DNA of 64,000 bases from Longimonas halophila (GTDB lineage Bacteria > Bacteroidota > Rhodothermia > Rhodothermales > Salinibacteraceae): assembly GCF_002554705.1 (NCBI RefSeq), contig NZ_PDEP01000011.1, positions 1 through 64,000 of the forward strand. The letters are read 5' to 3'. The notes below the pieces were generated by a model, which had not been told where the DNA came from, did not search any database, and worked only from the letters and a program-made list of their open reading frames with translations. The translations under genes were made by a program, and so were the position numbers. Position 1 is the stretch's first letter; each line of letters opens with the position of its first letter. Below are positions 1-31,547 of this stretch, in pieces.

Positions 1-572
1 CGAATAACGCCGGGTTTGAGGTACAGCGTGCGGCCGCATCCGCCGATGGCCCCACCAATGCATCTGTAGAGACGTCCCAGGTAGAGACGTCCCAGTGGGG
101 CGTCTCTACCCAATGGGGCGTCTCTACAGACCAACCGTGGGAAACCATCGCCACCCTTGACGGCGCAGGCACCACCGCCACCCCGCAGTCCTACCGGTTC
201 GAGGACACGGACCTGCCGTACGAAGCCGATAGCCTCCGCTACCGCCTCCGCCAGATCGACACCGACGGCACCGAATCCTTTAGCGAGGCGGTGACCATCG
301 CGTGGCCGGTGACCGAGGCAGAGCTGTTGCCGACGTACCCGAACCCGGCGCGCGGGCAGGCCACGGTGCGCTTTGCGGTGCCGGAGCGGCAGGACGTGCG
401 CATCGACCTGTACGACCTGCTGGGGCGCCGCGTGCAGACGGTGGTGGATACGGGTGCGGAGGGCCGCACGGAAGCGCAGCTCGACGTGAGCGGGCTGGCC
501 AGCGGCACGTACTTCCTGCGGATGGATACCGAGAGCCACACCGAGACCCAGCGCGTCACCGTCGTGCGGTGA
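1..572 (+). CDS. 3' end of a B-type T9SS-secreted surface protein (partial)
   Basis: This is the C-terminal end of a large secreted protein whose start lies left of the window; the reading frame begins at base 3. It shows the second half of an FN3-like domain (NNAGFEVQR, then WETIATLDGAGT and SYRFEDTDLPY), followed by a type IX secretion sorting tail (LLPTYPNPARGQATVRF, LYDLLGRRVQTV, GLASGTYFLRM). The linker after FEVQR has the wording of the B-type genes at 7731 and 23608 (AASADGP-NASVE), not of the A-type genes (SAHESADAS), so it is probably the last gene of a preceding A-P-B cassette. The tail is nearly identical in DNA to those two genes. It contains a palindromic insert with two left and two right arms. 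By family knowledge, such tails direct export through the outer membrane and attachment or release at the surface. Confidence 0.9.
   Translation, partial: NNAGFEVQRAAASADGPTNASVETSQVETSQWGVSTQWGVSTDQPWETIATLDGAGTTATPQSYRFEDTDLPYEADSLRYRLRQIDTDGTESFSEAVTIAWPVTEAELLPTYPNPARGQATVRFAVPERQDVRIDLYDLLGRRVQTVVDTGAEGRTEAQLDVSGLASGTYFLRMDTESHTETQRVTVVR
66..127. repeat. In-frame palindromic element, arms L-L-R-R
   Basis: Two left arms (GTAGAGACGTCCCAG, at 66 and 81) are followed by two right arms (ending CGTCTCTAC at 109 and 127). A left and a right arm form a 14-bp inverted repeat around a single central base. The block is translated in frame as VETSQ repeats followed by WGVST repeats. It sits in a loop of the FN3-like domain. 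Confidence 0.9.
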
Positions 573-1129
573 GCACGGCCCGGTAGCTCTTCCAAAGTAA
601 CCATGCCGGAATGGGGCATTTTGCTCCTTCCCGATGTCCGTTCCTGATTACAGATTCCTTCCTTCATGATGGCTCGTTCTGCTAACAATACGCTGCGCAA
701 TGCACCATCTCATCACACACTATCCCCATCGGATGCACGATCTGTGGCGGCCTACGAGCCGAGATCGGTGACTCGTTGCACCAGAGACATGACCTTCGGA
801 TCCAGCCCAGCTGAGCTGCTCGGAGCCTAAAATAAGAAATCAAAATAGGCTCTTAGCTGGAGAACTTGTGCTGAACGCCTTCGGTGCCGGGAGCGCCGCA
901 CGGCGCGGGGCCAACGCACCTCCATGAGACTGTGCCATTCTGTTATTTCCCCTTCCAGCCCCTGCAAAGGCCCTTTTGGCCCAGCCCGACACCCATTTGA
1001 CACGCTCACGCAACAGATTGACACGCTCACGAAACGCATCTGCACCGCCTATTGGATAGCCTATGCAGTGCGTTTGGGCGGGACTGCCCGCGCCTCTGTG
1101 CTTTGCCCTCCCTTTGTTTGTACTGTACC
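573..1129. other. Intergenic region upstream of cassette 1
   Basis: No convincing gene is present in these 557 bases. A possible hairpin lies at 823-852 (GAGCCTA/TAGGCTC, 16-base A-rich loop), with weaker outer pairing CCAGCT/AGCTGG. It could end transcription from the gene on the left, but there is no clear T run. The rest holds the tandem repeat described separately at 997-1038. The promoter of the A1 gene should lie here. Confidence 0.5.
997..1038 (+). promoter_or_regulatory. 21-bp tandem direct repeat upstream of A1
   Basis: Two adjacent 21-base copies begin TTGACACGCTCACG (997 and 1018) and differ at only a few positions near their ends. The second copy runs into CATCTG at 1037-1042. 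The repeat ends 92 bases before the A1 start codon. A different-sequence repeat with the same 21-base period and the same distance lies before A2 (14104-14145). Two-helical-turn spacing is typical of dimeric regulator sites; the regulator is unknown. Confidence 0.5.
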
Positions 1130-4100
1130 ATGATCACCAACACGCTACGCACCATTCGTTGTATGATTTCACGTCTTCGGCCCATTGCTGTCGATGAAGC
1201 GCCCCGGGCCCGCTCCTACCGTGCTACGATAGGAGCTGCCGCTGCGCTTTTATCGCTCATGCTTATCGGATTTATCACGCCCCAGCATGCCACGGCGCAG
1301 CAGGTGATCTACGTCACCGAGTCGGGTAGCGGAAGCGGCACTTCGTGGAGCGATGCAACGGACCTATCTTCGGCGCTCTCCAGCGCCACGAGCAGCGACG
1401 TCGTCGTGATTGCTGCCGGTACGTACCAGCCCAGCGAGCGGTTGGACGCGGGCGATTCGCGTACAGCCACGTTTGAAGTTACCGGCGACCAGGACGGACT
1501 GGGGATCTACGGCGGGTGGAGCGGGACCGAGTCGTTCAGCGGCATTGCAGATGTGGAGGCCCAGCTCGATAGCCGCGACCTGCAGGCCAACGAGACGGTG
1601 CTCTCCGGTGATCTCGACCAGAACGACGGTCCAGACACTGATGGCGACGGTTTCCCCGATTCGGGGCGTGCCGACAACGCATATCATGTGTTTGTCTTCA
1701 ACGGGGGCAGCGAAATTGGCTCCAGTGTGAGCGCAAACGTGACGCCAGCCACGGTGCTGAATGGCGTGACCGTTACGGGGGGTAGTGCCAATGGGTCATT
1801 TCCTGACAGCGCAGGCGGCGGACTTCTTTGCGACGGTCGGGGCAGCGGAAACGAGTGCAGTCCGCAGATCGCAAACGCCACGTTCACGGAGAACTCTGCA
1901 ACCCTCGGTGGGGCGATCTACAATAGAGGCCGAAGTGGCACAAGCAGCCCGCAGATCATAGATGCAACCTTCACGCGCAACAGAGTCATCTCTAAGTCAG
2001 GATTTTTTAGTGGGGCGGGAGGAGCCGTATACAACGATGCATTTGAGGGAAGAAGCAGTCCGCAGATCACAAACACGGTGTTCACCGGGAACTCCGCAGT
2101 GAGAAGCGGCGGAGCAATCTACAGTAGTGGAGACTCAGGAGTGAGCAATCTACAGATCACAAACGCGGTTTTCACCAGCAACTCCGCGGAATTTGGAGGT
2201 GCAGTATACAACGACAGTGGCGACGGTGAGAGCAACCCACTGATTATAAATGCAACCTTTACTGAAAACTCCGCGAGCACCGACGGAGGCGCAATTTATA
2301 ATAATCGTTTCACGGGCACAGTGGATCTGCAAGTTAAAAATACAATCCTGTGGGCCAACAGTGCAGAAGGGGAGGGCGATGAGATCTATAACTACAGAGG
2401 CAGCGTAACGCTCACGCATACGCTTATCGAAGGCGGTGTGAACGGCCCGGGCGTTAGTGAAAGTCCTATCATAGACGGCGGGAATAACCGCGATGCCAAT
2501 CCACTTTTTGTGGATGAAAGGGCCCCTGCCGGGCCCGATGGTGTGTTTGGCACCGCCGATGACGGGCTGCGCCTGATCCCCGGATCGCCCGCCCTGGACG
2601 CGGGAGACAACGTCCCATTTGAATCGGGTGGCGCGGCCGAAACTGTAACCACCGATCTGTTAGACGAAGATCGCATCCAAGATAATGATGGCGATGGCAC
2701 GCCAACGGTGAGCCTGGGCGCCTACGAACGCGGTGCAGACCCCGTCCCCAACCAGGCGATTGTCTTGGATGGCACCGGTGACTACGTCACGGCCAATGGC
2801 GTTTCGGATGCGCTGGCCGGTGCCGGTACGTTCACCATGGAAGCGTGGGTGTACCCAACCCAACCGAACGGCCAACAGGGCCTCACCGCGTTTAACACCG
2901 GTACGGGGGATAACCTGAACCTGCTGTTTTACCGCGACGGTCAGTTTGAGTACGTCGACGATGATGCCGGGCGTACGGCCAGCCGCAACGCCTTTCCGGC
3001 CGGACAGTGGTACCATGTCGCGTTTACGGTTGATGCGTCAGACACCGCAACGCTCTACGTAAACGGACGCCGCGAGGCGACGCTCACCACCCCTGTGCGC
3101 CCGGTCTCGGGCGGACGCTTCTCGATCGGGCACGAGTGGGACGGCAACACGCCCAGCGATTTCTTTGAGGGGCGTGTCGATGAAGTGCGCATCTGGAGCG
3201 AAGCGCGCACGCAGGCGGAGATTCAGCAGGGCATGACCACGTCGCTCGGGGAAGACAACACGCTTGGAGATGCCTTCGACCTGTCGAGCTTGGAGGCGTA
3301 CTACCGGTTTGAGGGGCTCACAGCCGATGCGACCGGCTCGCATGCAGGGATACCAGAAGGCGCTCCGTCATACACTGGCGACGTAGCGCAGTCCACCGCC
3401 GAGGACGCACTGATTGTACGCGTGAACGCGGCTGTATCGGGCGGCGCGGGCAACGGCACTACCTGGAGCGATGCACATGCCGACTTGCAAGACGGCCTCA
3501 CAGGCACGGGTCCCGAAAACGACATCTGGATCGCCGAAGGCACGTACACGCCAAGTAAACAGATCGATACAGACGATCCGCGCACTGCTACGTTTGAGAT
3601 TGCGGGCGACCAAGACGGTCTGAAGATTTACGGCGGGTTCGAAAGTGGCGATGCGTTTGCTGACCGCAATCCCGCCGATCACCCGACGATCCTCTCGGGC
3701 GATATTGGCACGACGGGCGACGCCTCTGACAATGCCTACCATGTCGTTGTTTTTAATGGGGGTAACGGTATTGGAAGTGGCACATTTGCGAATATCACTG
3801 CGGATACCGAGCTAAACGGCGTTACGATTACAGGAGGCCATGCAAATGGCGACGATGTTCTAAACAAGCAGGGCGGCGGGCTTTTCTGTGACGGAAGCAG
3901 TTCCGGTAACGAATGCAGTCCGACCCTTTCCAACACCATCTTTGATCAGAATGTGGCTGAGAGAGAGGGCGGAGCCCTTTTCAACGACGGATTGTTCTCT
4001 GGGGAGAGCAGTCCTATCCTTACCAATGTTACCTTCACAGGCAACAGCGCCCGTTCGGGGGCTGGGATGTATAGCCGGGGGGCATTCGGAGTAAGCAGCC

Positions 4101-6760
4101 CTGTCATCACGGAGGCCACCTTCGAAGGGAACGTAGCGTCCGTATCAGGTGGTGGGATGTACCTTAATAGCGACTCCGGCGTGAGCAATGCACAGATCAC
4201 CGATGCCATCTTTACGGGCAACGAAGCCAGCTTAGGAGCAGCTGGGTATATCAACGGGGCAGACGGCGAAGCCGCTCCACAGATCACAAATGCGGTCGTG
4301 ACCGAGAACGCGACAACCAGCAGTATCGGGGCGTTTTACTTTTATGGAGACGGCGGCTCGATAGCGGCTGAGGTGGTCAATAGCATCTTTGCTGATAATG
4401 GTGACTTCCATGTTGCCTTCAATGACGGCAATGCGGGCGAATCCCCAACCTTCATTAACTCGATCTTCACTGGAGCGACAGACTCTGCATTCAACATTCA
4501 GTTTTACGACAATGGGCAGACGCCCATGCAGGTCGTTAACTCCATCCTTTGGGGAAATGGTGCAGGGGATATCGTAGAGGCATCTGGAGCGGTGAGCGAT
4601 CCGGATCAGGCTGTGGAGGTGTCGTACTCCATCGTCGAAGAGGCGCGCTACGCCGAGGGCAGCGGCGACCCCAATGCAGGCACGGGCAACGCCAATACCG
4701 ATCCGCTCTTTGTGGATGCGGTACTCCCGGCGGGGCCCGACGACATCTTTGGCACCGACGATGACGGGATCCGCATAGCAAATGGCTCTCCGGCCGTCGA
4801 CGCCGGCGACAACAGCGCCGTGCCCAGTGGCGTATCGACGGATCTGCTCGGTGACCCGCGCATCCAGGATGGCAACGACGACGGCACCGCCACGGTGAGC
4901 CTGGGGGCCTACGAAGAACCCGGCTTAGCACGAGCACGAAGCGTAACGATTGCTGGAACCGACAGTGGCGACGACAGCGGATGGCGCATCTTGGGCGTGC
5001 CGTATACCGGGACCACCGCTGGCGACCTCGAACTGACGCACTCTGCTGGCGTGAGCGCCCCGCGCTTTGGTCAGAACGTCATGCAGATGTGGGACGATGC
5101 CGCTGGAGCAGAAACGCCCACAGGAGCCTACACGCCTGCCAACGCCTCTACGTCCTTGCCTGCGGGGACCGGGTTTCTCTTCTACTTCCGAGATGACGCT
5201 GCCGTCCCCGTTGACGACGCAGGCGTTACCGTATCCGTAGACCGCCCGGCCACAGCGCTGCGGTTTGCGGGCGACGTCACGGTGAGCGGCCTTAGTGCCA
5301 GTGCGCGCTGGCATCTCCTTGCCAATCCCTACCCTACCGGATACGCTCTGGGGGCACTTCAGAGCAACGGCCAGGCGCTGGTTGACGAAGGCTTCCAGAA
5401 CGATGCGCAGATCTACGACGTCACCGTTCCGGGCGGTGCAGGGTGGCGGTTTATCGACACCTCAAGCGATGTGCTGTCGGCCTGGCAGGGCGCGTTTATC
5501 GAGCGAACGGCCCCCGGAAATGGAGCTACGAGCGTCACGTTTGGAGAAGACGGCCGGGCTGCTGGTGTGCCCTTTATCGGCACAATGATGCAGGGGCCTG
5601 CATCAGATACACCTGATCGGGCCATGCTCCGGTTTGCACTCACCGCGCACGATGGCGGAGATTCTCCCATCGCCCGCGACGAAGCCATCGGCATTCGTTT
5701 CCACGAAGATGCCAGCACCGGCTTCGATCCGTACGACACCTCAAAGATGAATCCGCTGGAGACGCCCTACGCAATTGCAACACCTCTGGGCACCGGACGC
5801 GATGGCAGCGAGGTGGGCAAAGCAGTAGAGAGCCGCCCCTACCTGCAAGCAGGCGATGCGATGGCCAGAATCCCTGTGCAGCTATACACCGCAGAGGTGC
5901 CGAACGCCGCAACGCTTACCGTTTCGGTGCAGGCGTATGACCTGCCCGCCGAGTGGGCCGCCGAAATTGTGGATACGAAAGGCACCGCCGCGTCGAGCGA
6001 CGAACGCGTGGTGCCCCTGGGCCCAGACCACGAGATCGAGATTGCGCTGTCGGATCTGCAGGACTACAGCACCGAAGTGGCTCCGCTGCGCGTGCAGGTC
6101 GCTCCCAGCGAAGAGGCGCTGCCTGTTGAGCTGTCGAGATTCGACGCACAACGCGAGAGCGACGAATCCATCACGCTGCAGTGGCAGACCCTCTCGGAGA
6201 CGAACAACGCCGGGTTTGAGGTGCAGCGCCGCGTCCAATCCGCGCATGAATCTGCCGATGCATCCAACGTAGAGACGCCCCAGGTAGAGACGCCCCAATG
6301 GGACGTCTCTACGGACGGATCGTGGCACACCATCGCTACCCTCGACGGCGCAGGCACCACCGACCAGCCGCAATCCTACCGGTTCGAGGACACAGACCTG
6401 CCGTACGCCGCCGATAGCCTACGCTATCGCCTGCGCCAGGTCGACACCGATGGCACCGAATCCTTCAGCGAGGCGATCACGATTGCGCGACAGGTGACAC
6501 AGGCAGAACTCTTGCCGACGTATCCCAACCCGGCCCAGGCGCAGGCCACGGTGCGCTACGCCGTTCCCACCCGCCAGAACGTGCGCATCACGCTCTACGA
6601 CATGCTCGGGCGGCGCGTCCGCACCGTCGTTGATACGGAAACCGCCGGGCGTACCGAACAGACGCTCGATGTAAGCAGCCTGGCCAGTGGCACCTACTTC
6701 CTGCGTCTGCAGGTCGATAACGCCTCCGTAGATACACAGCGCCTCACCATCATCCGATAA
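1130..6760 (+). CDS. A1: T9SS-secreted beta-helix/LamG surface protein
   Basis: This is a 1876-residue secreted protein. Order by approximate residues: signal peptide 1-57 (ends ATAQ); beta-helix 1 with POMP-type repeats (GGAIY, FTxNSA) 58-455; choice-of-anchor-Q-like segment (NPLFVD, DDGLRL, SPALDAGD) 457-535; LamG-like lectin fold (AWVYPT, FFEGRVDEVRIW) 540-740; beta-helix 2 760-1185; second Q segment to 1262; A-type C-terminal module (FDPYDTSK, EVGKAVESRP) 1270-1663; FN3-like domain; T9SS tail 1790-1876. ATG at 1130 was chosen over an in-frame TTG at 1052; ATG at 1163 is also possible. By family knowledge the fold suits adhesion or glycan binding at the cell surface; the ligand is unknown. 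It is first gene of the cassette A1-P1-B1. Two left arms and one right arm of the palindromic element lie at 6269-6312. Confidence 0.9.
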   Translation: MITNTLRTIRCMISRLRPIAVDEAPRARSYRATIGAAAALLSLMLIGFITPQHATAQQVIYVTESGSGSGTSWSDATDLSSALSSATSSDVVVIAAGTYQPSERLDAGDSRTATFEVTGDQDGLGIYGGWSGTESFSGIADVEAQLDSRDLQANETVLSGDLDQNDGPDTDGDGFPDSGRADNAYHVFVFNGGSEIGSSVSANVTPATVLNGVTVTGGSANGSFPDSAGGGLLCDGRGSGNECSPQIANATFTENSATLGGAIYNRGRSGTSSPQIIDATFTRNRVISKSGFFSGAGGAVYNDAFEGRSSPQITNTVFTGNSAVRSGGAIYSSGDSGVSNLQITNAVFTSNSAEFGGAVYNDSGDGESNPLIINATFTENSASTDGGAIYNNRFTGTVDLQVKNTILWANSAEGEGDEIYNYRGSVTLTHTLIEGGVNGPGVSESPIIDGGNNRDANPLFVDERAPAGPDGVFGTADDGLRLIPGSPALDAGDNVPFESGGAAETVTTDLLDEDRIQDNDGDGTPTVSLGAYERGADPVPNQAIVLDGTGDYVTANGVSDALAGAGTFTMEAWVYPTQPNGQQGLTAFNTGTGDNLNLLFYRDGQFEYVDDDAGRTASRNAFPAGQWYHVAFTVDASDTATLYVNGRREATLTTPVRPVSGGRFSIGHEWDGNTPSDFFEGRVDEVRIWSEARTQAEIQQGMTTSLGEDNTLGDAFDLSSLEAYYRFEGLTADATGSHAGIPEGAPSYTGDVAQSTAEDALIVRVNAAVSGGAGNGTTWSDAHADLQDGLTGTGPENDIWIAEGTYTPSKQIDTDDPRTATFEIAGDQDGLKIYGGFESGDAFADRNPADHPTILSGDIGTTGDASDNAYHVVVFNGGNGIGSGTFANITADTELNGVTITGGHANGDDVLNKQGGGLFCDGSSSGNECSPTLSNTIFDQNVAEREGGALFNDGLFSGESSPILTNVTFTGNSARSGAGMYSRGAFGVSSPVITEATFEGNVASVSGGGMYLNSDSGVSNAQITDAIFTGNEASLGAAGYINGADGEAAPQITNAVVTENATTSSIGAFYFYGDGGSIAAEVVNSIFADNGDFHVAFNDGNAGESPTFINSIFTGATDSAFNIQFYDNGQTPMQVVNSILWGNGAGDIVEASGAVSDPDQAVEVSYSIVEEARYAEGSGDPNAGTGNANTDPLFVDAVLPAGPDDIFGTDDDGIRIANGSPAVDAGDNSAVPSGVSTDLLGDPRIQDGNDDGTATVSLGAYEEPGLARARSVTIAGTDSGDDSGWRILGVPYTGTTAGDLELTHSAGVSAPRFGQNVMQMWDDAAGAETPTGAYTPANASTSLPAGTGFLFYFRDDAAVPVDDAGVTVSVDRPATALRFAGDVTVSGLSASARWHLLANPYPTGYALGALQSNGQALVDEGFQNDAQIYDVTVPGGAGWRFIDTSSDVLSAWQGAFIERTAPGNGATSVTFGEDGRAAGVPFIGTMMQGPASDTPDRAMLRFALTAHDGGDSPIARDEAIGIRFHEDASTGFDPYDTSKMNPLETPYAIATPLGTGRDGSEVGKAVESRPYLQAGDAMARIPVQLYTAEVPNAATLTVSVQAYDLPAEWAAEIVDTKGTAASSDERVVPLGPDHEIEIALSDLQDYSTEVAPLRVQVAPSEEALPVELSRFDAQRESDESITLQWQTLSETNNAGFEVQRRVQSAHESADASNVETPQVETPQWDVSTDGSWHTIATLDGAGTTDQPQSYRFEDTDLPYAADSLRYRLRQVDTDGTESFSEAITIARQVTQAELLPTYPNPAQAQATVRYAVPTRQNVRITLYDMLGRRVRTVVDTETAGRTEQTLDVSSLASGTYFLRLQVDNASVDTQRLTIIR
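6269..6312. repeat. In-frame palindromic element, arms L-L-R
   Basis: Two left arms starting GTAGAGACG (6269 and 6284) and one right arm ending CGTCTCTAC (6312). It reads in frame as VETPQ-VETPQ-WDVST in the FN3-like domain of A1, the same loop as in the other four genes. Confidence 0.9.
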
Positions 6761-6895
6761 GAGCCTCCGACAAACAGCGAGCGCGTCCTGCTTACGTGCG
6801 GTCGCATGCAACGGGCATCGTGACTGCTGATACACGACGTTTGCGCGCAGCGCCAGCACGTGTCGTTTCATTTATCGCCTTTCAACCCCGCTTAT

Positions 6896-7660
6896 ATGTC
6901 GCTCTCCCCCCAGACCGATACAACACTGTTCGTCCTCGTGCTTTTTGCGATCGGAGCAGGGTCCATTTTCCTGTATCCGACCCTGGATGCGCCCGCCCCG
7001 TCCTCATGGAACAGCGCAGATGCATCCTCCGAGCAATCCAGCATAACTGGACGTTCGCCTCGCATGCCCGGAGCAGGTGCAACGGGCGGGGGATCGCGTC
7101 TTCTGCGTAGCAATCCGCTCTACGACGCGCCCGGAATAGCGGGCCGAGGTGCCTCATCTGGACATATCTCAGCCGGACCCATGACGTGGCAGCAGCCTTC
7201 GTGGGGAGCGGTGCCGTCATCGCAACGCAGCGCCCATCCAACAGCATCTCGTGGGAGGAGCCCTTCTCGCAGCGGATCGATGTCGGGCGGAGGCGGGACG
7301 AGCGGTGGGTACAGTGCCTCGGGGTCGGCGTCTGAACCGGGAGGCTGGGCGGGCGCGCTAGCCTCCAGCAGCGGCGAACTGGAGTCGATTGCGCGTAGCG
7401 CAGAGGGCATTGCCCGGCACCTTCGATCCAACCGTACCCGCCGTGCGGCCCCGGAGCGCACGCCGGAGTGGGCCGAATCGAGTGAGCCCGCTCCTGCCGC
7501 TGGACTTGGTAGCGACGCGCCCCTTCCCGATCCCCCAATCGATCCGAATCCGCCGCTGCCGCCCGACCCGGTGCCTGTAGATGGCGGACTGATGATCCTG
7601 GCCCTGGCGGGCGGTGCCTACGGACTGCGCCGTCTGCGGGCGGCAGATGTCCCAGCATAA
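6896..7660 (+). CDS. P1: PID-CTERM-like membrane protein, low complexity
   Basis: A 254-residue protein with a hydrophobic segment at about 11-28 (LFVLVLFAIGAGSIFLYP), a long Gly/Ser/Pro/Arg-rich middle, a conserved GGWAGALASSSGEL block, a proline-rich stretch (NPPLPPDPVPVDGG) and a C-terminal hydrophobic segment followed by arginines (YGLRRLR). The P-V-D-G-G, hydrophobic, basic tail resembles the PID-CTERM sorting tails annotated in Bacteroidota. A paralogue with the same layout is at 22699. It lies 135 bases after A1 and 70 bases before B1, so the three are probably co-transcribed. ATG 6896 was preferred to 6860 because it matches the start context of the paralogue (TATGTCG) and places the membrane segment near the N-terminus. 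A role in anchoring or presenting the A and B proteins is only an inference. Confidence 0.8.
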   Translation: MSLSPQTDTTLFVLVLFAIGAGSIFLYPTLDAPAPSSWNSADASSEQSSITGRSPRMPGAGATGGGSRLLRSNPLYDAPGIAGRGASSGHISAGPMTWQQPSWGAVPSSQRSAHPTASRGRSPSRSGSMSGGGGTSGGYSASGSASEPGGWAGALASSSGELESIARSAEGIARHLRSNRTRRAAPERTPEWAESSEPAPAAGLGSDAPLPDPPIDPNPPLPPDPVPVDGGLMILALAGGAYGLRRLRAADVPA

Positions 7661-7730
7661 CGCTTGCCCCTACGGTTTCCCACTGTACGTCCTTCGAATT
7701 GCCTGTACGCACTGCACGTAGCCCCACATT

Positions 7731-13907: not shown

Positions 13908-13925
13908 GCTTCTCCTCTGGCACGT

Positions 13926-13955
13926 CCGGTCCCTGCATGGTGGCGCGGGGACTGG
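13926..13955 (+). terminator. Hairpin after B1 (possible terminator)
   Basis: CCGGTCCC (13926-13933) pairs with GGGACTGG (13948-13955), with one G-U pair. There is no T run. The same hairpin, followed by the same GGGGATACTGCG, occurs 3' of B2 at 28260-28291, so the 3' flank was copied with the gene or is under selection. Confidence 0.4.
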
Positions 13956-14103
13956 ATGGGGATACTGCGATGGATGTACGTGAGGGCGTGCGCTTTGGCT
14001 TCCCTCCAACTTTTCCTGTGTTCGCGCAATTCAGCCGTACACCGTCCGAGTTGAGGGTGCGCTGGGCAGGGAGGCACGGCGCTGAGGCCGTTTGTACATG
14101 GCG

Positions 14104-14145
14104 TGCAACATAGACACAACGATCTGCAACATAGGCAAAAGCATC
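14104..14145 (+). promoter_or_regulatory. 21-bp tandem direct repeat upstream of A2
   Basis: Two adjacent 21-base copies beginning TGCAACATAG (14104 and 14125) match at 17 of 21 positions, and the second runs into CATCTG (14142-14147). The repeat ends 91 bases before the A2 start codon, against 92 bases for the A1 repeat. When aligned on CATCTG, the units of both repeats share an AAC-G-ATCTG-like end. A dimeric regulator site is a reasonable guess. Confidence 0.5.
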
Positions 14146-14235
14146 TGGGGACGCGGGCAGATACATTATTTGACCCCATAGCGAGCACAGTGCAATGCTC
14201 GTTCCACCCCCCGCCCAGCTGGTTTTGTTGTTGTC

Positions 14236-20200: not shown

Positions 20201-22590
20201 CGCAGAACACAGCGGGTGATCGGGGCGGGGCGCTCTACGCCAACAACAGTGATACAGAAATTACCAATGCCACATTCACGAAGAATACAGCAGCGAGCTT
20301 CGGAAACGCGTTCGCCAACTTCTTTAGCAGCTTCACCGTCACCAACAGCGTGCTGTGGGGCAACGGAAACTCGGGCGATCGTCAGTTCTTAACCGGCGAC
20401 CCGCTCACGCTGAGTCACACCCTTTTAGAGGGCGGTGAAAGCGGAGTTGGTGGCACAGGAGATGTTACATACATTGCGTCTGACGGAAGCGACGCCGGCG
20501 ACTTTGGCAACAGCTCCAACATCAATGCCAACCCTCTCTTCGTAGCGGCCAGCATGCCCGCCGGACTCGACGGCCAGTGGGCCACGGCTGATGATGGGCT
20601 GCGCCTGGCGGGCAATTCCCCAGCGGTGGACGCAGGGGACAACAACGCCGTGCCCAGTGGCCTTTCCACCGACCTGATCGGCAACGCGCGCCTCCAAGAT
20701 GGAGACAATAACGGCACAGCTACCATCACGCTTGGCGCGTACGAAACACCAGGGCTCGCCCTCACACGTAGCGTCACCATCACCGGCACCGACGCAGGCG
20801 ATGAGAGTGGCTGGCGGATTGTTGGCGTGCCCTACACCGGCACCACCGCCGGCGACCTGCGCCTGACACACGAAGGGAGCACGTCGGTGCCCCGCTTTGG
20901 CATGGACGTGGTGCAGACCTGGGACGATGCGGCAGGCGGTACCGTGCCTACCGGCGCGTACGTCCCTGCCGACATCGACACCAGCCTGCCTGTTGGCGAA
21001 GGCGTCCTCCTCTATCTGACCGACGACGCCATCACGCCCGTTGATGCATCGGGCATCACGCTCTCGGCCAATCGGCCCGATGCCGCCCTGCACCCCGCCC
21101 AAGACGTGCCGGTGAGCGTGGACCGTGACGCCCGCTGGCACTTGCTGGGCAATCCGTACCCGACGGGCTACGAACTGAGTGCGCTGAACCAGGCCGGACA
21201 GGATCTTCCGAGTGCAGGCTTCCACCAAGACGTGCAGATCTACGACGTAAGCGCCCCTGGCGGCCCCAGTTGGATTCTGCTCGATTCCAGCACCGAAACG
21301 CTCGCGCCCTGGCAGGGCGTCTTTATTGAGCGCAGCACACCAGGCACGGGCCCAACAGACCTCACCTTCGGCGCTCGTGGACGCGTGGCTCCTGTGCCGT
21401 TTATCGGTACGAATGCCGAAGCCCCCGCTTCCCAACAGGCCCAACAGGCGATGCTGCGGTTTACCCTGACGGCAGAAGCCAATGGGCAACGTGTGGCCCG
21501 CGATGAAGCGATCGGAATCCGCTTTCATGAGCAGGCCACCGCAGGCTTCGACCCGTACGACACGTCAAAACGCGACCCGCTGACGAGTGGCGCCTATGCG
21601 CTGGCCACGCCTGTGGGCACCGGGCGCGATGGGAGCGAGGTAGGCAAAGCCGTGGAGAGCAGACCGAATCTCCCCGACGATGGCGACCTGACGCAAATCC
21701 CCGTACAGCTCGACACCGCCGGACTCGATTCCGATGCTGTGCTTACCTTTGCGCTTACCGACTCCGACGCACCGGCGGAGTGGGCGGGTGAACTCATCAA
21801 CACGAAGGGCACCACCACCCCTACCGATGATGCTGTGGTGCCGCTGGTTTCCGGTGCCCATCTTGACATTCCCGTGAGCGAGCTGCCCTCTTATGCCGAT
21901 GAGGTGCCCCCGCTGCGCGTGCAGGTGGCTCCCAGTCAGGAGGCCCTGCCGGTTGAGTTGGCCGGATTCGAAGCACAGCGCGCGGGCGATGACGCGATCG
22001 CGCTGCAGTGGGAGACCCTCTCGGAGACGAACAATGCGGGCTTTGAGGTGCAGCGCCGTGCCCAATCTGCGCATGAATCTGCCGATGCGTCCCCAGTAGA
22101 GACGTCCCACTGGGGCGTCTCTACCCACTGGGGCGTCTCTACGACGGGTGAATCGTGGCAGACGATTGCGCATCTGGACGGCGCAGGCACCACCGACACG
22201 CCCCAATCCTACCGGTTCGAGGACACCGACCTGCCATACGCAGCGGATAGTCTGCGCTATCGTCTCCGCCAGGTAGATACCGACGGCACCGAATCCTTTA
22301 GCGAAGCGGTGACGATTGCGCGGCAGGTGACTAAGGCAGAGCTCTTGCCGACGTATCCGAATCCGGTACGCGGCCAGGCCACGGTGCGGTTTGCGGTTCC
22401 CAACCGCCAGAACGTGCGCATCCACCTGTACGACCTGCTGGGCCGCCGTATCCGCACGGTTCTGGATACGAGTACGGAGGGCCGCACGGAAGCGCAGCTT
22501 GACGTGAGCGGTCTGGCGAGCGGGACCTACTTCCTGCGCATGCAGACCCTCGGCCACACCGAAACCCAACGCATCACTGTGGTCCGCTGA
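14236..22590 (+). CDS. A2: giant T9SS-secreted protein with four beta-helix blocks
   Basis: A 2784-residue secreted protein, the largest here. Approximate order by base: signal peptide (residues 1-36, ends AHAQ); beta-helix 1 14350-15430 and Q segment; beta-helix 2 15660-16670 and Q segment; beta-sandwich-like domain 16870-17215; LamG-like fold 17240-17800; RLGQESIVV domain 17890-18280; beta-helix 3 18290-19300 and Q segment; beta-helix 4 19540-20530 and Q segment; A-type C-terminal module 20760-21940 (FDPYDTSK, EVGKAVESRP); FN3-like domain; T9SS tail 22330-22587. The C-terminal half matches A1, whereas the central LamG region matches B1, so the gene is a mosaic. It is first gene of the second cassette. 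ATG 14242 is an alternative start. The function is surface-exposed binding by inference; no catalytic motif was recognised. Confidence 0.9.
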   Translation: MLMLLSSFCYPARVRFGYVVLLAFLAVAFVPTAAHAQGETLYVDIDVENGNFDGSSWSNAFLTLQNALDVAGPDDEIWVAEGTYYPTNTEDRTISFEINGDQDGLKIYGGFDPDTGDTGFADRDRFANETILSGRIGNDILFGPIRSHQVVVFAQNGDTGPSGGAITRDTVIDGFIIEEGRADDGYPYRNGGAIYINGRGSSNETSPTISNMVLRENYGLNGGAVGIDGTQGGASSPLLTDVTFIRNQTPLDGGAVYGRGSGNPIIKNSVFVENEAASLSGSGPNYAYGGAIAVRAGSPSIHVINTVFANNEGKRGGAIYTDADMRLTNVTIAGNTASEVGGAIVNNANLRFENSIAWGNTAAGDGEEIYDNPFQNGTTQYTHALVQGLNPTGTGNLDGTDAANAPGFPSPNTPAGPDGILATIDDGLRLGENSPAVDAGDNSLITEPTDLTGRQRVQNGAVNLGPYEEAADTPERIYVDATATGAGDGTSWTDAHPNLQDALNRAGGNDRIWIAQGTYYPDEGGGRSPGDRAAPFYIPGTKDGLQLYGGFDGTETDLDDRDVLANETVLSGDINQSGTATGNSYTVVQMRGQGASDPITEATTLADLTITAGNADGVGLVQERGAGLYCDGSGSGNACSPTLRNVVFADHTASFGGSALFNDGRNGGTASPQIEGVLFTDNTADVNGGAIYNYGRGGASSPTIVNTTFSGNEAGTHGGAMYNYAYTNGVANLTINNTIWYGNTADSDGDGTGAGEQIYNDGADAVLNFRYSLFEGTANDIESVNGARVRYEDDRGISVSPISVSTNVQADPAFVDASAPAGPDTQFGTLDDGLRLSGASPVSSQGENSAVPTNLSTDLLGEARIQNSRVSLGAYERVSGIVLQLAASTGAETATFMLTHDGPSGVTGAAVDLGLPAGITTPGATGDGNVSGGMWTVDVPANDAVRVVVDLERDASAPTGVLDIAAQLDTDSYTIDGGLRDATQPDDATADWNLLEAPYGPGAALTFDGTDDYLRADAVAAELANADAYTMSAWVRPTNTDTGQRGIVAFHTGTGGNKNMLFYRNERFAYYDPDIGYQESTTTYAPDAWHHVVVTVDASDNGTLYVDGSAEATFSANVRPEAGDRFSIGQEWDGTTASDFFEGQIDEVRVWTAARTEAEIRASTYQTVPPERNDLAAYYRFDAAQTGQRLDESYAGTQAYDLAQDLDASFEGDLQWTASGARLGQESIVVEAGNTASLGPVDAQLTLTSTDARTTLYRYGNPGADVFTDLDVPRKTTRSNAVWGAVPTGTADLELTYANVTVPNSEAVGLAARPYPADAWTARTEAPASQTFTLTGQTNAREFALYDNGPPFYYVDADATGAETGDSFEDALTDLQDALAVAKPGEIIVIAGGTYKPGPDRTDAFRIDGSQDGLTVAGGFEGTESFESVSAFEAALPVRDFAANETILSGNLGIPGLSDDDAYHVLVVDGTTDGPITNVTTLDGLTITAGNADGSGSNASGAGLYCDGSGTGNACAPTLRTTQFVDNTATSDGGALYNNGSNGGSGSPRILNSAFADNQADHGGALYNNATDGTSSPELINTVFADNTADRGGAIYNDASDGTSSPTLANATLTGNTAAFGGAVYSSASGSGTSVPDIVNTILWDNTATDTGNDVYSTNGAAPAVRSTLVAGGCPTNADCGDGSTLLTEDPLFAEANTPAGTDGVYVTSDDGLALTSTSPALDAGDDSAVPAGITTDLIGEARIQDSNDDGTTAVTLGAYEQVPPPVIFVDASATGAANGSSFDNAYTTLQDALDVARRSNQIWVATGTYHPTAEARAGEPRSATFQIADTQAGLQIYGGFAGDETLSGISDIDPVLDSRDLTANRTILSGDIGTLDDPSDNAYHVVSASNLAEETQLDGFTITEGNANGTNFAEDAGGGIYSSSSNLTLNSLIVTENTASNEGGGLSASNNSTLHLTNTVFTNNSTGSEGGAIALTQSPAQMTNVVFAQNTAGDRGGALYANNSDTEITNATFTKNTAASFGNAFANFFSSFTVTNSVLWGNGNSGDRQFLTGDPLTLSHTLLEGGESGVGGTGDVTYIASDGSDAGDFGNSSNINANPLFVAASMPAGLDGQWATADDGLRLAGNSPAVDAGDNNAVPSGLSTDLIGNARLQDGDNNGTATITLGAYETPGLALTRSVTITGTDAGDESGWRIVGVPYTGTTAGDLRLTHEGSTSVPRFGMDVVQTWDDAAGGTVPTGAYVPADIDTSLPVGEGVLLYLTDDAITPVDASGITLSANRPDAALHPAQDVPVSVDRDARWHLLGNPYPTGYELSALNQAGQDLPSAGFHQDVQIYDVSAPGGPSWILLDSSTETLAPWQGVFIERSTPGTGPTDLTFGARGRVAPVPFIGTNAEAPASQQAQQAMLRFTLTAEANGQRVARDEAIGIRFHEQATAGFDPYDTSKRDPLTSGAYALATPVGTGRDGSEVGKAVESRPNLPDDGDLTQIPVQLDTAGLDSDAVLTFALTDSDAPAEWAGELINTKGTTTPTDDAVVPLVSGAHLDIPVSELPSYADEVPPLRVQVAPSQEALPVELAGFEAQRAGDDAIALQWETLSETNNAGFEVQRRAQSAHESADASPVETSHWGVSTHWGVSTTGESWQTIAHLDGAGTTDTPQSYRFEDTDLPYAADSLRYRLRQVDTDGTESFSEAVTIARQVTKAELLPTYPNPVRGQATVRFAVPNRQNVRIHLYDLLGRRIRTVLDTSTEGRTEAQLDVSGLASGTYFLRMQTLGHTETQRITVVR
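22096..22142. repeat. In-frame palindromic element, arms L-R-R
   Basis: One left arm (GTAGAGACGTCCCA at 22096) and two right arms (ending CGTCTCTAC at 22124 and 22142, 18 bases apart). It is translated VETSHWGVSTHWGVST in the FN3-like domain of A2. This is the only complete gene with a duplicated right arm. Confidence 0.9.
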
Positions 22591-22698
22591 TTTCCCCACC
22601 TGCGCCACCGTGTGGTCTCGTTTCGACCGGGCATGCGCTCCCACCAGGGCAGACCGGTTAACATCTTCACTATACCATCTTTCGTTTTTCCACCTGGT

Positions 22699-23496
22699 AT
22701 GTCGTCCCCTACGCGCCCATCGCTTTCTGCAGGTGCCGACTTGGTCCTGTTTGTGCTCGTTGTTCTTGGTATCGGAGGCGCTTTTGTGGCGCTGTATCCT
22801 GCACTCACAGCGGAGCCCCCCGAGTCGTGGAATCAGCAAACCACGGAAGAGGAGAGGGCAGATCGTGCCGATCCCACCCAGAAACTGATGAGTCAACTCA
22901 AGGGCGAGGTGCCGCAGGTGCTCCGGGGCAACCCGCTGGATGGGATCCCCGCACTGCACAGAGGCCAGGCTCGTATGTCGTGGAGTAGCGGGTCGGCGGC
23001 TTCGGCGCGGAGGGCCCCCTCGGGACGCACATCAGGTGCATTTGCTGGACGCGCGTGGTCATCATCAGAATTGGGGGATGGGGTGACGTCGCCGGGCTAC
23101 ACCGCAAGCCCGCGTGCGTCGGGAGGCGCACGCCCGTCACAGGGACGCAGGTCGTCGGGGGCCGATCCGGGCGGATGGGCCGGGGCGCTGGCATCGAGCA
23201 GCGGTGAGCTTCGGGCGCTTGAACGGCAGGTGGGGGCCATTGACCGGCAGCTTCGGGTCGCTTCGCAGTCCTCAGCAGCTGAGCGCGTTCCGGCCTGGGC
23301 CAACGCCGATGAATCGATTACAGGCCCTGCCGCGAGCATGACGAATCCGCCTTTGCCCAATCCGGGCGACCCCAATCCGCCCTTGCCGCCCGATCCGGTG
23401 CCCGTAGATGGCGGACTCGTGCTCCTCGCGCTGGCCGGGGGCACCTACGGATGGCAGCGCTTGCGCACAGGCGATGCTCCTTCGCCTCAAGAGTAA
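22699..23496 (+). CDS. P2: PID-CTERM-like membrane protein, low complexity
   Basis: A 265-residue paralogue of P1. It has a hydrophobic segment at about 13-34, a low-complexity Ser/Gly/Arg-rich middle, the conserved GGWAGALASSSGEL block, then NPPLPPDPVPVDGG, a C-terminal hydrophobic segment and a basic end (YGWQRLR). The middle has diverged much more than either end. ATG 22699 was chosen over upstream in-frame starts because it gives the same N-terminal layout as P1. It lies 108 bases after A2 and 111 bases before B2. The tail resembles PID-CTERM sorting signals, and the topology (membrane segment at both ends) suggests an envelope protein with a long extracytoplasmic linker. Confidence 0.8.
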   Translation: MSSPTRPSLSAGADLVLFVLVVLGIGGAFVALYPALTAEPPESWNQQTTEEERADRADPTQKLMSQLKGEVPQVLRGNPLDGIPALHRGQARMSWSSGSAASARRAPSGRTSGAFAGRAWSSSELGDGVTSPGYTASPRASGGARPSQGRRSSGADPGGWAGALASSSGELRALERQVGAIDRQLRVASQSSAAERVPAWANADESITGPAASMTNPPLPNPGDPNPPLPPDPVPVDGGLVLLALAGGTYGWQRLRTGDAPSPQE

Positions 23497-23607
23497 CTAC
23501 TCTACCGTGGGGCCTCCCACCCGGATGCTGAGATTTAGCATCGGAGCGGGGATCGTCATAGACATCCCCCGTATTGATATTGACTTCTACTTTCTCCCCG
23601 TTTTACG

Positions 23608-26600
23608 ATGTTTGTTCTCCACATACACGCTACCAACGCCCGGTTCTCTGGCCCATTTGTTGGCCCCATTCCCCAGTGGAGGCGGTGTGCAAGTCTTTTG
23701 CTTGCGCTTTTATTCGGGGTAACCCTTTCTGTACAGGCTCAGCAGGTGTTCGACACGGCAGGCGAGTACACCTACACGGTGCCGTCAAACGGCGTGCTTA
23801 TGGTGGAAGCGCGAGGCGCAGATGGGGCTATTAGCAGTTTTGTAAATACTGGGGGCGGCCAGGGAGCCACGGTTGGTTCAACATTTGAGGTGCAGGCGGG
23901 CGACGTGTTAACGGTCGTCGTTGGGGAGGCGGGTGAGCCCTATGGCCCTGGTGCAGGAGGAGGCGGTGGCGGGTCGGCAGTTATTGCCACGCGTAACGGT
24001 AGCTCAACCCTCTTGCTGGTCGCTGGGGCGGGAGGCGGAGGGAGTTCGTCAAGCGGAGGCGGAGGCCGGTCTGCTCTGGCCTCAAACGGTGCAGGAGGAG
24101 CAGGGGGGAACGGTAACGATCCTCAAAGCGGAGGAGGCGGTGCCGGAGGAGGCGGATTCAACGACGCGGGTGGCAATCCTACGGGAGCAAACGCGTTTGC
24201 CGAAGGGGGCGGCGCTGGCACGCTGAGCGGGCGCGGAGCCGGAGGACGTGGGGGCGGTCTCAATGGAAGCACGGGGGGGGCTGGATTTGGTGCAGGTGGC
24301 GGCAGCGACCTTGGCGGCGGCGGGGGGGGCGGTTTCATAGGAGGAGATGGCGGCAATGGCGGTGATCTGCCACGTGAACCCGGTGAGGGCGGCCTCTCTT
24401 TTGTCGAAACCAATAGCTTAGATTTTAACGGAGCAGTGACTATCCAAATGGATGGCGGCGCCGGAGCGGGAAGTGGGCGCGATGGGCGCGTTGAGATTTT
24501 GGTTAGTGCCCCTGTACCCAATCAGTCACTCAACCTCGACGGCACCAACGACTACATCACGGCCTCTGGCGTCGCTGATGCGTTGGCTTCAGCGAGTGCG
24601 TTTACGATGGAAGCGTGGGTATATCCGACCCGCGCCAGTGGCCAACAGGGCATCACCACCTTTCACACGAGCACCGGCAACAACCGCAACCTGCTCCTCT
24701 ACCGAAGCGGGCAGTTTCAGTATTTCGATGGAGACACCGGCTACGTAGCCAGCCGCAACGCCTTTCCGGCGGGGCAGTGGTATCACGTGGCGTTGACGGT
24801 CGATGCTTCCAATACCGCCATCTTGTATGTGAACGGGCGCCGCGAGGCCACGCTCAACACCAGTGTGCGTCCAGAAGCAGGCGGGCTCTTCTCGATCGGG
24901 CAGGAGTGGGACGGTGGCCCCACCGCCAGCGACTTCTTCGAGGGCCGCATCGATGAGGTGCGCATCTGGAGCCAGGCGCGCACGCAGGCCCAATTGCAGC
25001 AGGGCATGACCACGTCGCTCGGCACCGACAACACGCTCGACGATACGTTCGACCTGTCAGACCTGGTGGCGCATTACCGCTTTGAGGGTAATCTCCTTGA
25101 TGAAACCGGGGCCTACGCCGGTACTGCTGAGGGCGCGCCGACTTATACCGACGATGTAGCGCAGACTACAGCCGAGGACGCGCTGATTGTGCGAGTGAAC
25201 ACGGCGGTGAGCGGTGGCGGCGCGGGCAATGGCACGTCGTGGACCGATGCGCATGCGGCGCTGCAGGACGGCGTCGCGGGCACGGGTCCGGAGAACCAAA
25301 TCTGGATCGCCGCCGGCACCTACACGCCCACGCGGCGGCTTGATGCCGGGGACCCACGTACGGCTACGTTTGAGATCACCGGCGCCCAGGACGGGCTGCA
25401 GATCTATGGTGGATTCGACGGCACCGAAACTACCCGAAGTGAGCGGGCCCCATCAGCGAACGAGGTAATCCTCTCAGGCGACATTGGCACTGCAGGCGAT
25501 TCCTCGGACAACGCCTATCACGTGCTTGTTTTCAATGGGGGCGATCGCATTGGGGCGAATAGCCCCGGCAACATCACGACGGGCACGGTGCTGGATGGCC
25601 TCACCATCACCAGTGGGAATGCGGCAAACAGCTTTCCTAATAATGCAGGAGGAGGGCTGTACTGCGATGGCGTAGGCAGCGGGAACGCGTGTAGCCCGTC
25701 GCTGACCGGGCTCACCTTCACGGACAACTCCGCAGGAGCCGGCGGGGCGATCTACAACGAAGGCTTCAACAATGGCGCGAGCAGCCCGGTGATTACAAAC
25801 GCCACCTTCACGGGCAACACCGCAGATCTTAACGGTGGGGCGATCTACAACAATGGCGCCAGTGGCACGAGCAGCCCGATGATTACAAACGCCACCTTCA
25901 CAGGCAACACCGCAGATCTTAACGGCGGGGCGATCGGCAACAATGGCATCGTCGGCACAAGCAGTCCGCAGATTACGAACACCATCTTGTGGGGAAATAC
26001 CGCCACCAACGATGGCGACGAAATCTACAACGACGACGCTACGCCCACCCTCGCGCATACGCTCATCGAGGGCGGGCTTGGTGGAATCAGTGAAAGTGGC
26101 GGCTCTTTCACCACCGATGGCGGAAACAACCTCGACGCCGAGCCGCTCTTTGTAGATGCGAATGACCCGGCCGGACCCGACAACGCCTTCGGCACCGCCG
26201 ATGACGGGCTGCGCGTGGCTGCAAATTCCCCTGCGGTCGACGCGGGCGACACGGGTGCGCTGCCCACTGATGCCGCAGACCTCGACGGTGACGGCGACAC
26301 CACCGAGCCGCTTCCGCTGGATATTGCCGGAGCCCCGCGCATCCAGGACGGCGACAGTGATGGCACCGCGACCGTAAGTCTGGGCGCGTACGAGACGTCC
26401 GGCCTGCCCATTGCCACGAGCGTCACCATCACCGGCACCGACGGCACGGGCACCGATGCCGGCTGGCGCGTGCTAAGTGTGCCCTACACGGGTGCGGTCG
26501 CGGGCGATCTAAGGATGTCGTCTTCCACCGGGACCAACGCCCTGCGCTTCAACCGCAACATTGCAGCGGTGTGGGACGACAGCGATTCCGACGAAAGCAC

Positions 26601-28242
26601 CGGCGGCACCGGCGCCTACACGACCGTCGACGCCAGCACGCCGCTGGACCTGGGTGCGGGCCTTTTGCTCTACCTTGAAGACGACGTCCGTGACCCCGTC
26701 GAATCGGGCGGGCTCGCCATCTCGCTGGATGAGAGCACCACCGCCACGCGACAGGGCCTGCAGGCCGTCGTGCGCAATGACCTTACGCAAAGCGCCCGCT
26801 GGCACCTCGTGGGCAACCCGTATCCCACTGACTACGACCTGATGGCGCTGACGACCGGCGGCAGCCCGCTCGCTGGGAACGGATTTCAGGCGGATGTGCA
26901 GGTCTACGACGCCACAAATAGCACGTGGCAGATCCTGAGTGTGGGCACCGAGACGCTGGCCGCATGGCAGGGCGCGTTCATTGAACGAAGCAGCCCCGGC
27001 AATGGACCCACCACGGTCACGTTCGATCCGGGCGGGCGCACCGCCCCGAATGCGCCGTTCATCGGAAGCGAGATGCAAGGGCCTGTCGCCACATCGAGTG
27101 TCGAGCGCGGCACGCTGTGGCTGGAGGGCGTCGTAACCGATGCAGCTGGCACGGTCGTCGCGACCGACCAGGCCATTGGGGTGCGCTTTCACGAGAGCGC
27201 GACCGATGGGTGGGATGCGTGGGACACCTCGAAACTCGCGCCGCTGGAAGCGCCGTCGCTTGCGCTAAGTGCGACAGGCACCGGACGCGGCAACACCGGA
27301 GCATCCAAAGCCGTCGAGAGCCGCCCGTGGCCGCAAGATGCGTCGGATCCCGATGCGAATCTTACCGCAGTGCCGGTGGCCATTCGAGGCAATGGCCTCC
27401 CCGATGACGGCACGCTCACGCTTCAGGTGCGCGAGTGGGACCTGCCGGACACATGGGCCGCGGGGCTGATCGACACACAAGGCACCTCCGATACCAGCGA
27501 CGACCAGGCTGTGCCCCTGGAGCCGGGCATGAACTACACGGTGGACGTGAGCAGCCTGACTGACACCCCGGAAACCGAACGATTCGTGGTGCAGGTTGCG
27601 CCGAATACGGGGGCGCTGCCGGTGGAGCTGGCTGGATTCGGCGCACAGCGCTCCGGCGAGGATGCCATCACGGTGCAGTGGGAGACCCTCTCCGAAACCA
27701 ACAACGCCGGGTTTGAGGTGCAGCGCCGCGCCGCGTCCGCCGATGGCCCCGCCAATGCATCCGTAGAGACGTCCCAATGGGGCGTCTCTACGACGGGTGA
27801 ATCGTGGCAGACGGTTGCGACCCTCGACGGCGCAGGCACCACGGGCACCCCGCAGTCCTACCGGTTCGAGGACACCGACCTGCCCTACGCCGCAGACAGC
27901 CTGCGCTACCGCCTACGGCAGATCGACACCGACGGCACCGAATCCTTTAGCGAGGCGGTGACCATTGTCCGGCAGGTGACCGAGGCCGAACTGCTCCCCA
28001 CGTACCCGAACCCGGCGCGCGGGCAGGCCACGGTGCGCTTTGCGGTGCCGGAGCGGCAGGACGTGCGCATCGACCTGTACGACCTGCTGGGGCGGCGCGT
28101 GCAGACGGTGGTGGATACGGGTGCGGAGGGCCGCACGGAAGCGCAACTCGACGTGAGCGGGCTGGCCAGCGGTACGTACTTCCTGCGGATGCAGACCGAG
28201 GCCGGGCCTATCGACACGCAACGGGTGACGGTGGTGCGGTAA
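23608..28242 (+). CDS. B2: T9SS-secreted protein with glycine-rich N-terminal domain
   Basis: A 1544-residue secreted protein. A signal peptide (ends VQAQ, about residue 45) leads into a glycine-rich domain at 23750-24510 (TYTVPSNGVLMVEARG, LTVVVGEAG, LLLVAGAGGGG), which resembles the Pfam glycine-rich family also present in ALK/LTK receptors. Then come a LamG-like fold (24520-25110, very close to A1), one beta-helix with POMP-type repeats (25180-26130), a Q-like segment with a DLDGDGDT insertion, the B-type C-terminal module (DGWDAWDTSK, SRPWPQDASDPDA), the FN3-like domain and the T9SS tail. It is the shortest complete member: the glycine-rich domain stands where the others have their first beta-helix. 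It is last gene of the second cassette and of the array. Confidence 0.9.
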   Translation: MFVLHIHATNARFSGPFVGPIPQWRRCASLLLALLFGVTLSVQAQQVFDTAGEYTYTVPSNGVLMVEARGADGAISSFVNTGGGQGATVGSTFEVQAGDVLTVVVGEAGEPYGPGAGGGGGGSAVIATRNGSSTLLLVAGAGGGGSSSSGGGGRSALASNGAGGAGGNGNDPQSGGGGAGGGGFNDAGGNPTGANAFAEGGGAGTLSGRGAGGRGGGLNGSTGGAGFGAGGGSDLGGGGGGGFIGGDGGNGGDLPREPGEGGLSFVETNSLDFNGAVTIQMDGGAGAGSGRDGRVEILVSAPVPNQSLNLDGTNDYITASGVADALASASAFTMEAWVYPTRASGQQGITTFHTSTGNNRNLLLYRSGQFQYFDGDTGYVASRNAFPAGQWYHVALTVDASNTAILYVNGRREATLNTSVRPEAGGLFSIGQEWDGGPTASDFFEGRIDEVRIWSQARTQAQLQQGMTTSLGTDNTLDDTFDLSDLVAHYRFEGNLLDETGAYAGTAEGAPTYTDDVAQTTAEDALIVRVNTAVSGGGAGNGTSWTDAHAALQDGVAGTGPENQIWIAAGTYTPTRRLDAGDPRTATFEITGAQDGLQIYGGFDGTETTRSERAPSANEVILSGDIGTAGDSSDNAYHVLVFNGGDRIGANSPGNITTGTVLDGLTITSGNAANSFPNNAGGGLYCDGVGSGNACSPSLTGLTFTDNSAGAGGAIYNEGFNNGASSPVITNATFTGNTADLNGGAIYNNGASGTSSPMITNATFTGNTADLNGGAIGNNGIVGTSSPQITNTILWGNTATNDGDEIYNDDATPTLAHTLIEGGLGGISESGGSFTTDGGNNLDAEPLFVDANDPAGPDNAFGTADDGLRVAANSPAVDAGDTGALPTDAADLDGDGDTTEPLPLDIAGAPRIQDGDSDGTATVSLGAYETSGLPIATSVTITGTDGTGTDAGWRVLSVPYTGAVAGDLRMSSSTGTNALRFNRNIAAVWDDSDSDESTGGTGAYTTVDASTPLDLGAGLLLYLEDDVRDPVESGGLAISLDESTTATRQGLQAVVRNDLTQSARWHLVGNPYPTDYDLMALTTGGSPLAGNGFQADVQVYDATNSTWQILSVGTETLAAWQGAFIERSSPGNGPTTVTFDPGGRTAPNAPFIGSEMQGPVATSSVERGTLWLEGVVTDAAGTVVATDQAIGVRFHESATDGWDAWDTSKLAPLEAPSLALSATGTGRGNTGASKAVESRPWPQDASDPDANLTAVPVAIRGNGLPDDGTLTLQVREWDLPDTWAAGLIDTQGTSDTSDDQAVPLEPGMNYTVDVSSLTDTPETERFVVQVAPNTGALPVELAGFGAQRSGEDAITVQWETLSETNNAGFEVQRRAASADGPANASVETSQWGVSTTGESWQTVATLDGAGTTGTPQSYRFEDTDLPYAADSLRYRLRQIDTDGTESFSEAVTIVRQVTEAELLPTYPNPARGQATVRFAVPERQDVRIDLYDLLGRRVQTVVDTGAEGRTEAQLDVSGLASGTYFLRMQTEAGPIDTQRVTVVR
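27763..27791. repeat. In-frame palindromic element, single unit
   Basis: One left arm (GTAGAGACGTCCCA) and one right arm (TGGGGCGTCTCTAC) with one central base. It is translated VETSQWGVST. This is the simplest form of the element and probably shows the basic unit. Confidence 0.9.
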
Positions 28243-30332: not shown

Positions 30333-30427
30333 GCGTTGCCAGCGGTTGGCATGCATCGCAACCCGCCCTGTGCCTGTGCCGTACGCGCCCCTGAACTGCT
30401 CCTGACTCACATAGCTTGCCCCAACTT

Positions 30428-31414: not shown

Positions 31415-31477
31415 CTACCTGAGTTCCGCCATCTGATTGTAAGGTGCCCATAGCCGGAGACTGCATGCGCTCACTTC

Positions 31478-31526
31478 CATCCACCCCTCAGTCGCTGCGC
31501 GACAGCTCCCCTCTCCAGGGGAGCGA
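31478..31526. repeat. 49-bp dispersed intergenic repeat, copy 1
   Basis: This 49-base stretch (from CATCCACCCCTCAGTCGC to CCAGGGGAGCGA) is identical to 34139-34187. It contains two hairpins, GTCGCTGCGCGAC and CTCCCCTCTCCAGGGGAG. Both copies lie between genes. A diverged inverted relative lies at 51863-51889. Confidence 0.85.
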
Positions 31527-31547
31527 TTGACGGCGTGGGGCTATGTT

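Follow-up and report, generated by a model that had tools for sequence, protein, structure and literature searches.

PID-CTERM genes paired with type IX secretion cargo in Longimonas halophila and other Bacteroidota, with links to exosortase XrtX, porV and a RemA-like module

The window considered here is the first 64 kb (64,000 nucleotides) of contig C11 (NZ_PDEP01000011.1) of the Longimonas halophila genome, which is assembled into 35 contigs for a total of 3.73 Mb. It opens with an array of six genes, A1-P1-B1-A2-P2-B2, lying head to tail on the + strand after the end of a further B-type gene (B0). The A and B genes encode giant cargo proteins of the type IX secretion system (T9SS) and the P genes encode PID-CTERM proteins (Table 1). 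The conserved unit is the pair formed by a T9SS type A cargo gene and a PID-CTERM gene (model NF046080); across Bacteroidota, PID-CTERM genes adjoin cargo bearing a RemA-like module, porV or the gene of the exosortase XrtX.

The first-pass annotation of this DNA had reported the order A-P-B twice (1130–13907 and 14236–28242), each P between its A and B with short gaps, and a window that starts with the end of a B-type gene. Gene calls bear out this layout, the intergenic gaps being 99 (A1-P1), 70 (P1-B1), 328 (B1-A2), 21 (A2-P2), and 111 nt (P2-B2). The T9SS tail model TIGR04183 is above its cut-off in 5/5 cargo C-termini of the window (B0, A1, B1, A2, and B2), and the N-termini of A1, B1, A2, and B2 show, as read by eye, a hydrophobic stretch with AQ at its end. 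The giants contain beta-helix/POMP repeats, choice-of-anchor Q domains, and one LamG domain apiece, and a module of ~370 residues precedes their T9SS tail. POMP/Chlam_PMP repeats are shared with the chlamydial polymorphic outer membrane proteins, but the window giants end in a T9SS signal and have no autotransporter barrel; a Chlamydia-type autotransporter was rejected because the C-terminus matches the T9SS tail only.

Table 1. Features of the array at the start of the window.
Feature	Position	Strand	Description	Basis
B0	1..572 (tail 3-572)	+	TIGR04183 at 336-563; C-terminal end of a B-type T9SS cargo, truncated where the contig begins	TIGR04183 match
A1	1130..6760	+	Giant T9SS type A cargo; beta-helix/POMP repeats, LamG ~2768-3226, RemA-like module, T9SS tail 6521-6745; open frame alternatively from TTG at 1052	
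A1 RemA-like module	4940..6061	+		
P1	6860..7660	+	PID-CTERM protein; hydrophobic N-terminus, ~180-residue Ser/Gly/Pro-rich spacer, PVDGG, transmembrane segment and RLR tail	
P1 PID-CTERM sorting signal	7571..7639	+		
B1	7731..13907	+	Giant T9SS cargo; POMP repeats, LamG ~9531-9983, RemA-like module, T9SS tail 13668-13892	
B1 RemA-like module	12069..13211	+		
A2	14236..22590	+	Giant T9SS cargo; several beta-helix units, LamG ~17257-17715, RemA-like module, T9SS tail 22354-22581	
A2 RemA-like module	20767..21882	+		
P2	22612..23496	+	PID-CTERM protein; nearest paralogue P3 (contig C12)	
P2 PID-CTERM sorting signal	23398..23466	+		
B2	23608..28242	+	Giant T9SS cargo; Gly-rich N-terminus, LamG ~24538-24996, RemA-like module, T9SS tail 28003-28227	
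B2 RemA-like module	26416..27561	+		

P1 and P2 both score 30.5 bits with NF046080 (cut-off 26), and P3, the third P gene of the genome (C12:90208-91068), is also above the cut-off; P, at first labelled PID-CTERM-like, is thus PID-CTERM proper. The C-termini of P1 and P2 consist of P(V/I)DGG, a hydrophobic stretch, and a basic tail. The N-terminus of P is likewise hydrophobic, without a clear cleavage site in P1 and with a plausible one in P2 and P3. Of the earlier description of P as a bitopic envelope protein, the C-terminal membrane anchor stands; the hydrophobic N-terminus may be cleaved off as a signal, which leaves the bitopic topology in doubt. The single exosortase of the genome is an XrtX (C2:22550-23116; NF046081 188.7 bits, cut-off 170), in which the expected exosortase Cys, Arg, and His positions are seen by eye; it scores just under the XrtF cut-off (TIGR04128, 88.7 versus 90). 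NF046080 and NF046081 are consecutive accessions and were therefore probably made as a pair by the NCBI curators. The link of P with T9SS cargo had been recognised in the first reading of the window, while the links with XrtX and with the RemA-like module had been overlooked.

PID-CTERM genes were found in 60/392 sampled Bacteroidota genomes and in 19/60 relatives. Their neighbourhoods were surveyed over 7–20 kb around ~95 genes, a cargo being counted if on the same strand and within 300 nt. The check proposed with the first annotation, namely whether P relatives are flanked by T9SS cargo, gave a positive answer for 72/96 PID-CTERM genes (57 with cargo upstream only, 9 downstream only, and 6 on both sides), against a chance adjacency of ~4% per gene (~3–6% for genomes with 46–95 cargos). 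The other 24 have no cargo on either side within this distance; six of them follow porV, three abut XrtX (L093, L100, and L136), and two are second PID-CTERM genes ≤0.6 kb from a cargo. porV is the type A shuttle gene. In particular, the PID-CTERM gene lies 77–299 nt 3' of porV in six genomes of one family (L058, L061, L066, L072, L073, and L075), the porV calls being above the NF033710 cut-off in 6/6. A separate Trp/Asp-rich PID-CTERM family (WDAPEPSSNPW...) occurs without a T9SS neighbour in both genomes of one genus (L023:8097-8786 and L054:7623-8360). Salinibacter-group genomes without PID-CTERM matches (L160, L162, and L163) carry, after the module cargo, a short conserved open reading frame with a transmembrane segment and an RRLS tail, possibly a degenerate PID-CTERM.

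The cargos next to PID-CTERM genes share the module. A profile was built from seven Rhodothermota sequences, trimmed of the common LPVEL...NNAGF stretch and of the T9SS tail, and in the first pass it detected the module in 70/75 PID-adjacent cargos and in 10/27 other cargos of the same loci; iteration raised these counts to 73/75 and 11/27. Eight genomes were then searched in full with an alignment that some of the tested cargos had entered, so the first-pass figure is the cleaner one. In these eight genomes 29/29 PID-CTERM genes lie within ~2.1 kb of a same-strand module, which is present in ~11% of the cargos in four of them. A search starting from the module itself, with a four-paralogue alignment and 52 named loci fetched, located PID-CTERM genes just 3' of the cargo in Hymenobacter, Pontibacter, Botryobacter, and Balneolia; exclusivity of the module to PID-CTERM pairs was rejected, as it is common in Hymenobacter and other cargos with no PID-CTERM gene found nearby.

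No Pfam or NCBIfam model matched the module, which matches the gliding adhesins RemZ (E 8.7e-33) and RemA (E 6.1e-30) of Flavobacterium johnsoniae. Like RemA and RemZ (PDB 8gl6 and 8gl8), the window giants have a homologous C-terminal module before a T9SS type A tail; unlike them, they add beta-helix/POMP repeats and LamG, the likeness having been compared over the module only. RemZ has been captured in complex with the SprA-PorV translocon, where cryo-electron microscopy resolved only the C-terminal domain of RemZ well (PMC10994853). AlphaFold modelled the module with pLDDT 39 from four paralogues and with pLDDT 75 and pTM 0.61 from 49 rows; Foldseek returned no credible match for the 49-row model in the PDB.

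The distribution of exosortases follows that of the PID-CTERM proteins. PF09721 is matched in 53/60 genomes with PID-CTERM genes versus 48/332 without (Fisher p 1.5e-29, uncorrected for phylogeny), and 23 of these 48 belong to one family and carry long EpsH-type proteins; among the relatives the figures are 14/19 versus 4/41. PF09721 missed the XrtX of genome G099. Shared operons take the forms cargo with module, PID-CTERM, XrtX, and a small membrane gene (L144); cargo with module, PID-CTERM, and XrtX (L237); XrtX, small gene, PID-CTERM, and cargo with module (L077); and XrtX, small gene, and cargo with module (L241). A small gene (~130–170 aa) follows XrtX in several genomes (L144:5502-5900, L241:3755-4273, and L236:8090-8554), and none of the scanned representatives hit a Pfam or NCBIfam model. 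Gene order of this kind could also arise without direct partnership, if PID-CTERM genes travelled with adhesin genes for regulation or hitchhiked in amplifying surface loci. The loci do recombine and vary, and some PID-CTERM genes sit elsewhere (e.g., L023/L054); nevertheless the pairing recurs in numerous genera from several families and selects cargo that bears the module, and porV and XrtX are neighbours of PID-CTERM genes as well, so that mere linkage is highly improbable.

The array itself had been interpreted as two tandem copies of one functional A-P-B unit, in which P partners two secreted proteins. Besides the repeated order, the two C-terminal classes alternate along the array, as had been noticed: A1 and A2 have FDPYDTSK and EVGKAVESRP in common, B1 and B2 have DGWDAWDTSK and SRPWPQDASDPDA, and module identity is 60% for A1-A2 and 76% for B1-B2 versus 47–51% between A and B. 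Cargo-P-cargo arrangements are also present at L102, L103, L125, and L114 of distant genomes. The LamG domains pair otherwise, A1 with B2 (74% identity) and B1 with A2 (62%), while the last 185 residues are 74–94% identical family-wide regardless of class; this conflict of pairings together with uniform C-termini is as expected under recombination or gene conversion. The giant upstream of P3 on C12 is of B class, with a module 84% identical to that of B2, and no cargo lies 3' of P3; two P-less giants on C7 and C2 are B class as well, so the C-terminal class fails to predict position. P2 is 67% identical to P3 and 47% to P1. The gene immediately 3' of P3 (L020:6291-7667) encodes a protein of 458 aa that in part resembles ScyF (NHL-type, PEP-CTERM).

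In genome G001 of the same genus, a flank matches window 29412–31999 at 92–93% DNA identity, and the syntenic site holds a single, unrelated 1936-aa cargo and one P, 8 nt apart; a P1-type protein was not found in this genome, which is 86% complete. Neither concordant domain histories nor an order kept in relatives was found, and block duplication of A-P-B was rejected on four grounds: the mosaic domains, the B-class giant-P arrangement of C12, the P-less giants of C7 and C2, and the cargo-P pair of G001. Moreover, cargo flanks 66 of the 72 cargo-linked P genes on a single side, and only six of the 96 genes have it on both sides, two of these being the window's own. A three-gene unit is thus very unlikely and the array is a variable, amplified surface locus, whose A-P-B-A-P-B order may have arisen as the cargo genes around cargo-P pairs were amplified locally and recombined. 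The array contains DNA repeats of 80–100% identity across 300 nt, beyond chance, and a promoter/terminator scan gave signal no higher than shuffles. C11 (window 1–572) and C12 (at its end, L020:19102-19674) are broken in the same B-type C-terminal repeat, 92% identical; the array is therefore probably longer than assembled, with ends that are artefacts of the assembly. A giant on C16 (L022:5042-9676), relative of A3, has neither the RemA-like module nor a P and is a natural control; it seems split over two adjoining open frames (L022:4163-5038 and 5042-9676).

The reading to which we lean, with modest confidence, is that XrtX has P as its substrate and that P is coupled to the delivery or retention, through the T9SS, of adhesins with a RemA-like module. 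Sec would export P, whose PID-CTERM tail would keep it in the inner membrane; XrtX would then cut P at P(V/I)DGG and pass the remainder to an envelope anchor. Once processed, P may join the PorV-dependent pathway in delivering or retaining the adhesin encoded next to it, with binding to the RemA-like module of that adhesin as the likeliest route. Phenotypes shared by xrtF and T9SS mutants of F. johnsoniae fit such a coupling: deletion of xrtF (Fjoh_1448; TIGR04128) impairs adhesion and biofilm formation in the way that porU, porV, and sprA mutations do, defects in colonisation, biofilm, and zorbs are common to xrtF and T9SS mutants, and the substrates of Bacteroidota exosortases are still to be identified (PMC10936215). 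XrtF is a related exosortase, but the L. halophila enzyme is an XrtX.

The length of P bears on this proposal. With signal cleavage sites predicted by a simple rule, the stretch between cleavage and PxDGG has 11–16 residues in most of the phylum (median 12) and is often Gln-Pro-Gly-Leu-Pro-like. Proteins from the Rhodothermota side have a median of 64, and a PxWA motif occurs in 30/34 of them and in none elsewhere. The genome carries both parts of the XrtX/PID-CTERM system above cut-off, and P1–P3 are the extreme in length, with spacers of ~180–210 residues; no account of a pairing of this system with T9SS cargo was found in the papers searched. Alternatively, an unprocessed P, tethered to the membrane, could serve in the periplasm as an accessory (pilot or chaperone) to secretion of the neighbouring cargo. 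P genes do pair with cargo and porV, P1 and P2 are hydrophobic at both ends, and the pairing of a type B cargo gene with its own small PorP/SprF-type shuttle gene is established (PMC12618676). In the window, however, the partner is a predicted exosortase substrate in place of an outer-membrane barrel, and its cargo belongs to type A; the signal of P is tripartite as in exosortase substrates, XrtX co-occurs and shares operons with PID-CTERM genes, and the typical 11–16-residue spacer is too short for a chaperone, which makes an unprocessed accessory unlikely.

Several observations weigh against the XrtX-substrate reading. The co-distribution takes no account of phylogeny, and PF09721 is unmatched in five PID-CTERM-bearing relatives and seven genomes of the phylum sample, some of them incomplete. 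About half of the module-bearing cargos in the eight genomes are without P, as are the module cargos on C7 and C2 of L. halophila, and there are two P genes for four window giants. Finally, P1–P3 are without the usual signal-peptide-plus-Gln start and their spacers are ~15 times the typical length.

A more specific form of this reading, which we put forward tentatively and as short of probable, is that XrtX, its small membrane neighbour, and the PID-CTERM proteins constitute a dedicated branch of the T9SS, in which the exosortase produces an anchored peptide (11–16 residues in most species, ~200 in L. halophila) and this peptide docks type A adhesins at the surface by their RemA-like modules; if so, two export systems thought to be separate would converge on one adhesin. 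Outside the array, the adjacent open reading frames at window 60101–60517 and 60562–61056 have the same residues at both ends (MPIDTLKSKRRLVEEYGLDDRQAEGI...) and are a recent tandem duplication.

XrtX and PID-CTERM were already known as NCBI models; a literature search for which most subscription journals were out of reach found nothing that connects them with type A cargo of the T9SS, with the RemA-like module, or with porV. The analysis defines a domain that had no model and turns the idea of a surface cassette into a concrete hypothesis. A putative XrtX substrate tied by gene order and co-distribution to RemA-module type A adhesins and to porV is a testable partner; the pairing suggests that export routes that seem separate work together, and the tie between P and the adhesins may explain the common adhesion phenotypes of exosortase and T9SS mutants.

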